This document shows, one piece after another, positions 38,263 through 48,533 of a DNA stretch of 64,000 nucleotides. The stretch covers positions 1 through 64,000 of the forward strand of contig JAQSDW010000221.1 of NCBI GenBank assembly GCA_029946105.1, written 5' to 3'. The stretch comes from Reyranella sp. Its GTDB lineage: Bacteria > Pseudomonadota > Alphaproteobacteria > Reyranellales > Reyranellaceae. Every line of letters starts with the position of its first letter. Position 1 is the first letter of the stretch. Under the pieces are notes generated by a model. It was not told the DNA's origin. It searched no databases and saw only the letters and a program-made list of their open reading frames with translations. Position numbers and translations under genes: made by a program.

Positions 38263-38286
38263 GGTCAGCGCGGTCGGGCGTTCATG

Positions 38287-38366
38287 GGAGCGCGCCACTT
38301 CGGGCGGAGGTTACTCCGCCCGAAGTGGCGCTTACGATCATGAGCGCCACTGGAGTGGCGCGCTCC
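38287..38366 (+). repeat. Nested palindromes with two alternative folds
   Basis: An 18-bp perfect inverted repeat, GCGCCACTTCGGGCGGAG at 38292-38309 and its complement at 38314-38331, has a 4-base loop. A second short hairpin GCGCCACT-GG-AGTGGCGC follows at 38344-38361. In addition GGAGCGCGCCACT (38287-38299) is the exact complement of AGTGGCGCGCTCC (38354-38366), so the whole unit can fold as one outer stem instead. It lies between the GH25 gene and the hydrolase fusion. It could be a terminator-like or a REP-type element; no T-run follows. Confidence 0.75.
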
Positions 38367-38458
38367 TCCGACAGATGATCGCCCGCGCGGCGATGTGTGA
38401 GGCGCTTCCGCTTCGGACGGAACCGCTCTAGCCTTCGCCACCGGCGCCGAAGAGCGCC

Positions 38459-47243: not shown

Positions 47244-47816
47244 TTAGCGCGCCGTCACGCCGATCAGCGAGTCGTGCAGCCACATCATCGCGACATAGGC
47301 CACGGTGCCGATCACGACGACGATGGCGTCGTTGAGCTTGAAGCCGTCGACCGGCGGCGCGCCCCTATCGCCACGGCGCTTGAGCGCGATGCGGTCGTAG
47401 ACCGCCCAGGCGAGCAGGCCGCCGAACAGCAGTATCGAGCCGAGATCGCCATTCACCAGCAGGTGGGAGAGCGCCCAGGCCTTGACCGCCACCAGCATGG
47501 GATGGCGCAGCATTGCCTTGATCTTGCCGGCCGGCGCGTAGGCGGCGACCAGGGCCACGAAGGCGAACCACAGCAGGACGAGGGCGATGGGATGGAAGAT
47601 CGCCTGCGGCGGGTTCCAGACCTGGATGTAGCCGCCGCTGCGGTAGCTGCCGAAGCCCCAGACGATGAGCACCAGGCCGACAGCCGAGACCAGGGAATAG
47701 AGGCCCTTGTAGCCGCCCTCCCCCAGCCGGCCGATCATCGCCGCGCGGGTCTCGCGCATCGTGGTGAGCGTGTGGATGCCGAGGAAGAGCACGAGACCGA
47801 GGATCAGGAAGGACAT
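47244..47816 (-). CDS. NnrU-family membrane protein
   Basis: This 190-residue membrane protein has about six helices and matches NnrU-like proteins, originally named for denitrification gene neighbourhoods but with functions that remain unclear; they are related to isoprenylcysteine methyltransferase-like folds. Visible motifs are FLGIHTLTTMRETRAAMIGRLGEGGYKGLYSLVSAVGLVLIVWGFGSYRSGG, IFHPIALVLLWFAFVALV and LRHPMLVAVKAWALSHLLVNGDLGSILLFGG. No denitrification genes are in this window. It may be co-transcribed with the porin. Confidence 0.88.
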   Translation of the reverse strand: MSFLILGLVLFLGIHTLTTMRETRAAMIGRLGEGGYKGLYSLVSAVGLVLIVWGFGSYRSGGYIQVWNPPQAIFHPIALVLLWFAFVALVAAYAPAGKIKAMLRHPMLVAVKAWALSHLLVNGDLGSILLFGGLLAWAVYDRIALKRRGDRGAPPVDGFKLNDAIVVVIGTVAYVAMMWLHDSLIGVTAR

Positions 47817-47870
47817 GGCGGCAGTGTATCACAGCCGATGGCTAGTGGTTGAAATCAGACACAAGAGTCC

Positions 47871-47943
47871 CATGAGCGCGCAGGATGCGCGCGGTCCAAA
47901 AAATCATGAGTCTTCTGGACCGGGCGCATCCTGCGCGCTCATG
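47871..47943 (+). repeat. Long palindrome, 28-bp arms with one mismatch
   Basis: CATGAGCGCGCAGGATGCGC at the left is the exact reverse complement of the last 20 bases. Inside, CGGTCCA and TGGACCG continue the stem after one G-G mismatch, leaving a 17-base loop. The direct repeat TCAGACAC lies on both sides (47855-47862 and 47973-47980). It sits in a gap between NnrU and the small protein at 48006. It has no T-run on either strand after the stem, so it does not look like an ordinary terminator. Confidence 0.75.
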
Positions 47944-48005
47944 TCGTGCGATACGCCACGAGGCTCTTGCTTTCAGACACGGTACCTTCTGTTGGATTCG
48001 ATCCA

Positions 48006-48395
48006 CTAGCTGAGGTCTTCGGTCGAGGCCCGGGGGTCGTAGGCGGCGTCGCAGCCCAGCACCTTGGTGAAGGTCTCGTCGACCAGGCGGGCGACATCGG
48101 CCGGTTCATTGCCGGCGGTGCCGACGGTGGCAAAGGCGTTGGCGTCCCAGTCGACCAGCTCGAGCTCCATCTCCTCGACACCCTCCATGGCGCCGCTCAG
48201 CTCCAGGCGGGTGAGCGGCTCCTCGCTGTAGGGATAGGGCGAGATGTTGATCGAATCGGCCATGACCTGGATCGACACGTCTGTGCCGCCGGCATTCACT
48301 GCCTCGATCGTGCAACAGAGCATGCCGCTCTCGTTGGGTTGGCCGTAGATGTCGGCGATTGCCGCCACAATCGCATCGACCTGACGCTGAGGCAT
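48006..48395 (-). CDS. Conserved small protein, unknown function
   Basis: The family is not recognised. The ATG at 48395 gives 129 residues (MPQRQVDAIVAAIADIYGQPNESGMLCC), with AGGAG 10 bases upstream; the longer ORF in the track starts in the antisense of the MORN gene. The protein is acidic, has no signal or membrane helix, and has a Cys pair near residue 26 (LCC) and one near the C-terminus (LGCDAAYDP). Stretches with alternating residues (SIQVMADSINISPYP, EEMELELVDWD) suggest a small alpha/beta fold. It could be a cytoplasmic accessory protein; there is no clear context. Confidence 0.72.
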   Translation of the reverse strand: MPQRQVDAIVAAIADIYGQPNESGMLCCTIEAVNAGGTDVSIQVMADSINISPYPYSEEPLTRLELSGAMEGVEEMELELVDWDANAFATVGTAGNEPADVARLVDETFTKVLGCDAAYDPRASTEDLS

Positions 48396-48533
48396 TATCG
48401 TCTCCTGATTGACCCTGATTCCTATCCGGCGATCGCGGATATCATGGTTTCGCACAGCCTCCCGAGCAACCTTTGCGACTTGGGGCCCGTTTAAGTCAGG
48501 GATCTCCCTAATCGGGTGGTCTGGAGGCGTATC

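Follow-up and report, generated by a model that had tools for sequence, protein, structure and literature searches.

What kind of element is the 73-bp palindrome at positions 47871-47943 of a 64-kb stretch of Reyranella DNA (the window, meaning the whole sequence analyzed), and how did it come to be there? A scan of the 64 kb identified it as the strongest and longest near-perfect inverted repeat, with arms of 31 nt (47871-47901 and 47913-47943) that are 94% complementary and enclose a spacer of 11 nt. The DNA fold of region 47855-47985 amounts to -50 kcal/mol; shuffled sequences average -21.6 (z = -10.2), and none of 200 was as stable. The scan and the fold bear out the first-pass annotation, which had described a real 73-bp palindrome, and place it far beyond chance. 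The CATG at its start and end and the lack of a terminator T-run, both noted there as well, are seen in the sequence. As RNA, the palindrome is a very stable hairpin, and comparison with Rfam returned only chance microRNA matches far below the gathering scores.

The most probable answer, to which we assign a probability of about 0.9, is that positions 47842-48009 represent a 168-bp non-autonomous MITE of the IS630 family with a REP doublet (REPIN/BIME-like) as internal cargo. On this reading the locus is a pair of nested non-autonomous mobile elements, the MITE and the REP doublet. Every component is of a known kind, and the arrangement of a MITE carrying REPs is a modest twist. The locus is composed as follows.

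47244-47816, minus strand: NnrU-family gene (PF07298, E 1.4e-56)
47842-48009, plus strand: whole mobile unit, 168-bp IS630-type MITE, delimited by the second copy, the copies in genomes G030 and G023 and empty orthologous sites
47842-47871, plus strand: MITE left end, CTAGTGGTTGAAATCAGACACAAGAGTCCC, including the left TCAGACAC; 15 of 20 positions match the right terminal repeat
47871-47904, plus strand: REP unit 1, CATGA-GCGCGCA-GGA-TGCGCGC-GGTCC (covariance model R1, 51.1 bits, E 1.1e-14 in the window)
47910-47943, minus strand: REP unit 2, inverted (covariance model R1, 48.7 bits, E 7.3e-14)
47944-47979, plus strand: variable right spacer with the second TCAGACAC (alignment of MITE copies)
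47980-48009, minus strand: MITE right end, reverse complement CTAGTGGATCGAATCCAACAGAAGGTACCG, with 24/30 identity to IS630 3' ends in genomes G025 and G085
48006-48408, minus strand: conserved hypothetical gene with approximate start and a TAG stop inside the insertion site (the ORF ends ...ASTEDLS* at 48006)

Boundaries and terminal relationships of the 168-bp unit

The palindrome and the two copies of the 8-base sequence TCAGACAC beside it are enclosed by longer inverted ends, CTAGTGG (47842) and CCACTAG (48009), that the first-pass annotation had overlooked. Searches of the contigs of the source genome, a 5.6-Mb draft in 242 contigs, on which all own-genome counts are based, revealed a second copy on contig C224 (11315-11413). 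Its left 49 bp and right 49 bp are 100% identical to the window; most of the palindrome has been deleted, leaving a middle part that corresponds to about one palindrome arm. Since the identical ends run outward to CTAGTGG...CCACTAG, the unit comprises 168 bp, from 47842 to 48009. A genus-wide search uncovered full copies with 92% identity in G030 and 80% in G023 and more diverged or truncated ones in G018, G021, G063, G076, G080 and G082, so that copies of the MITE are found in nine genomes, the source genome and eight other Reyranella. For two exact matches of the left end the source is named, one being a MAG of Reyranella massiliensis and the other a MAG of an alphaproteobacterium.

None of the 168 bp is present at the orthologous intergenic site of G021, G032 and G076, the three genomes for which the intergenic multiple alignment was usable, as most other loci ran into different neighbors. 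The empty site of G021 reads CAGCCGCTACCGGCTAACCGAGGTC, and the window reads CAGCCGATGGC[TA]GTGG...CCAC[TA]GCTGAGGTC. At the locus of the second copy, the homologous genes of relatives (e.g., G021, G063 and G083) terminate with a stop codon of their own, and the element is missing there. The window element is real and mobile and has moved recently. An origin from a phage or plasmid was rejected, as viral contigs contained no exact REP unit and plasmids gave no match.

The ends of the element match those of complete 1.15-kb IS630 transposons in the genus. The finished genome G016 contains eight identical transposase copies of the IS630 family (NCBIfam NF033545, E 7e-79), and comparison of three copies delimits the IS as CTAGTGGACCAAATCTAACA...TGTTAGATTCCATCCACTAG. 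Identical transposase copies at several loci of this genome (L140-L142, L211, L227, L235 and L240) represent a recent IS expansion. Random sequences would share on average 7.5 positions with the IS630 3' end that the right 30 bp of the MITE match at 24; the left end agrees with complete IS630 ends at up to 21 of 30 positions (random mean 7.3), and the best 20-bp matches reach 18/20 on the right and 16/20 on the left. In the complete IS, the C-terminal residues of the transposase (...LDSIH*) are encoded at this 3' end. A search of the own draft assembly for a close IS630 transposase (E<=1e-20) found none. No IS bearing the left end CTAGTGGTTGAAATCAGACAC, as the exact parent would, turned up either; the best-matching IS ends differ at 6-9 of 30 positions.

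By its sequence, the 168-bp unit is an IS630-type MITE: its terminal inverted repeats match IS630, it occurs in multiple copies alongside empty sites, and it is short and non-coding, its 168 bp leaving no room for a transposase (related two-ended copies measure 77-216 bp). The Correia elements of Neisseria and RUP of Streptococcus pneumoniae have been cited as IS630-derived (PMC2817692). The Reyranella unit has in common with these MITEs the short, gene-less make-up, the IS630-type terminal inverted repeats and a presumed TA/CTAG target. As proposed for them, its mobilization might proceed in trans, in that an IS630 transposase would recognize the IS630-type ends. Unlike Correia and RUP, the Reyranella MITE holds a REP doublet at a fixed internal junction.

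The REP doublet and RAYT genes in relatives

The palindrome is an inverted doublet of REP units, with the CATGA tags facing outward and GGTCC facing inward. The REP consensus reads CATGA-GCGNGCN-GGA-NGCNCGC-GGTCC and includes a stem of 7 bp. Among 30 distinct units, 96.7% of the stem cells are paired, 38 double changes occur compared to 13.7 in shuffles, and the covariation score reaches 0.476 versus 0.087 (slid controls <=0.056). The units were collected with the fixed flanks ATGAGC and CGGTCC, which restricts the informative pairs to those of the inner stem. The suspicion that the palindrome belongs to a dispersed family proved correct, as the covariance model detects about 50 units in the source genome (E<0.01) and the family extends across the genus. 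Most own-genome REPs are arranged as opposite doublets with CATGA inside; among the matches listed, no doublet other than that of the window has CATGA on the outside. Runs of N lie beside or inside REP doublets on two own contigs (L009 on C150 and L018 on C120), and REP hairpins may cause assembly gaps and undercounting.

The first-pass annotation had also suggested that the palindrome at 38284 may be in the same family. It can be regarded as a divergent relative but not as a sister copy: its right half (38339-38373, CATGAGCGCCACTGGAGTGGCGCGCTCC) matches the model weakly (E = 0.038), with GCTCC replacing GGTCC. The whole of 38284-38373 is a divergent REP doublet with GGAGC/GCTCC for GGACC/GGTCC, and the loop of its left hairpin appears to hold a palindrome of its own, TTCGGGCGGAGGTTACTCCGCCCGAA.

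REPINs and BIMEs are REP doublets that form hairpins (PMC3116915). The window doublet shares with them the two inverted hairpin units, the short spacer, the covarying stems, the dispersal and the presence of RAYT genes nearby in relatives. It differs in that the copy rides inside an IS630-type MITE and in its tag: the window and the aligned units, all of the CATGA/GGTCC family, carry CATGA and GGTCC and no GTAG/GTGG foot.

RAYT genes (PF01797) are present in 33 of 65 genomes of the genus. Of two examples with NF047646 (REP-associated tyrosine transposase) as best match, one exceeds the curated cut-off and the other falls short of it. The own draft genome yielded no RAYT above cut-off; a weak fragment resembling a RAYT (41% over 44 aa, E 2e-5) was the sole trace. 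Inverted pairs of CATGA/GGTCC REPs, 575-692 bp apart, flank the gene at 15 of the 48 RAYT loci examined in relatives (L155, L158, L159, L162, L164, L167, L169 and L172; further L199, L201, L202, L203, L205, L207 and L209), and 12 of these 15 pairs have identical stems. The stem variant of the window (GCGCGCAGGATGCGCGC) was found on both sides of a RAYT at none of the examined loci. The architecture of the 15 loci is that of the REPtron, a RAYT between inverted REPs (PMC2817692, PMC8266576), down to the matching stems. Unlike in REPtrons, no RAYT above cut-off accompanies the REPs of the own draft, and only about a third of the examined loci show both flanks with the pattern used. The findings suggest that RAYTs and REPs are paired in a lineage-specific manner, the REPs having a tag other than GTAG. 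The units of the window belong to a family found across the genus, and the RAYTs of relatives would be the cognate enzymes acting on it. RAYT loci of this kind, often with two identical-stem flanks, offer a natural set for studies of RAYT-REP specificity.

Arrival of the palindrome and alternative readings

A search made without the palindrome returned about 15 element-like places, some of them weak (E up to about 0.5). Nine of these, at different loci and in several species, carry a CATGA REP at the junction where AAGAGTCC meets CATGAGC, the second copy of the source genome included. Four others (L073, L075, L100 and L101) contain the CGTC-like palindrome GTCCTGAGCGNAGCGAAGGAC instead; of the remaining places, one has a REP further in and one has neither palindrome. 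The shared junction across loci and species indicates that the REP doublet resided in the MITE before the latter arrived at the window locus. It is improbable, therefore, that the palindrome itself inserted here into a resident MITE as a REPIN moved by a RAYT. Such an event would fit with the doublets of the window orientation that stand alone in relatives, without MITE ends (L033, L058, L061, L179, L180 and L182), and with the REP stem variants that differ between MITE copies, but not with a junction common to MITE copies at different loci.

Still less probable is that the palindrome serves the local gene pair as an intrinsic terminator or a regulatory RNA hairpin. The stability of the RNA hairpin speaks for such a role, as does its position between two co-directional minus-strand genes, in the upstream region of the NnrU-family gene and 55 bp from its start codon. 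A terminator was nevertheless rejected because the T-run is missing and the hairpin is not conserved in the orthologous intergenic region of relatives, and copies at unrelated loci argue against any function tied to this gene pair. A local effect on nnrU expression may have been acquired and would be secondary.

Hardly any credence can be given to the model put forward in the first-pass annotation, in which the 73 bp would be the element and TCAGACAC on either side its 8-bp target duplication. Two exact copies do flank the palindrome (47855-47862 and 47973-47980), with no further copy in the window, but they do not adjoin it, being located 8 and 29 bases outside its ends, and two occurrences in 64 kb are within chance (shuffle mean 1.35). 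On the left, the terminal repeat of the transposon has this copy as its inner end. In the alignment of MITE copies, the position of the right one is occupied by TCTGGCAC in G030 and by TCAAGGCAC in G023, and the right copy is, judged from these divergent sequences, a chance resemblance. Both are present in the second copy of the 168-bp element in the source genome and thus travel with it. A target duplication would leave a single TCAGACAC in strains lacking the element; the relatives without it carry neither copy at the orthologous site, which shows that TCAGACAC belongs to the element and refutes a target duplication.

The MITE as a possible REP vehicle and its insertion site

If the palindrome was brought in by an IS630-type MITE, as favored here, such MITEs might be general REP vehicles in the genus, dispersing CATGA/GGTCC and CGTC-like REPs, also between species, without a RAYT. 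This idea is doubtful at present; the evidence suggests it and falls short of establishing it. The CGTC-like palindrome has 16 matches with up to two mismatches in the genome of the window and none in a reversed control. Its family, represented by GTCGTCCTGAGCGNAGCGAAGGAC in the MITEs at L073, L075, L100 and L101, is distinct from the window REP and similar to the CGTC-tagged REPs (PMC3733652), with an assignment to the CGTC superfamily by resemblance only, the tag being CGTC or TGTC. Di Nocera et al. (PMC3733652) described CGTC REPs without a dedicated transposase and left open a mobilization by other transposases. If the idea holds true, IS630-ended MITEs loaded with two unrelated REP families would provide one concrete route for the mobilization of CGTC REPs. 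The window locus itself is an ordinary insertion, and the main interest lies in this vehicle idea, especially for CGTC-type REPs. At another locus (L098, contig C338 of G076, around 1080-1120), a third palindrome, CAGGGCGAAGTTTACTTCGCCCGA, has been inserted into the loop of a REP hairpin that is itself part of a MITE, which amounts to three nested repeats.

CTAG is found at both ends of the element and TA in the empty site of G021 (GGCTAACC), a TA that by sequence is inseparable from the element's own end. The target would accordingly be TA/CTAG, with a presumed duplication of TA within CTAG. The MITE probably entered a CTAG/TA site within the stop codon of the minus-strand gene that terminates at 48006, with the TAG restored and the 73-bp palindrome carried along as a passenger. 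The G021 orthologue of this gene ends ...GAGGACCTCGGTTAG and has no element, and the insertion at the stop codon was recent and probably harmless. The C224 copy likewise is located at the TAG stop of its own upstream gene. In 11 of 16 copies, the left-flank frame is open for at least 150 codons and ends in TAG (or a diverged equivalent), compared to counts of six and one for the remaining frames. A tendency of MITE insertions toward TAG stop codons is suggestive only, long open frames being common in GC-rich DNA, and the choice of CTAG as target would explain such a bias. MITEs at TAG stops of genes with the frame left intact were observed at L001, L013, L031, L057, L075, L098, L101 and other loci.
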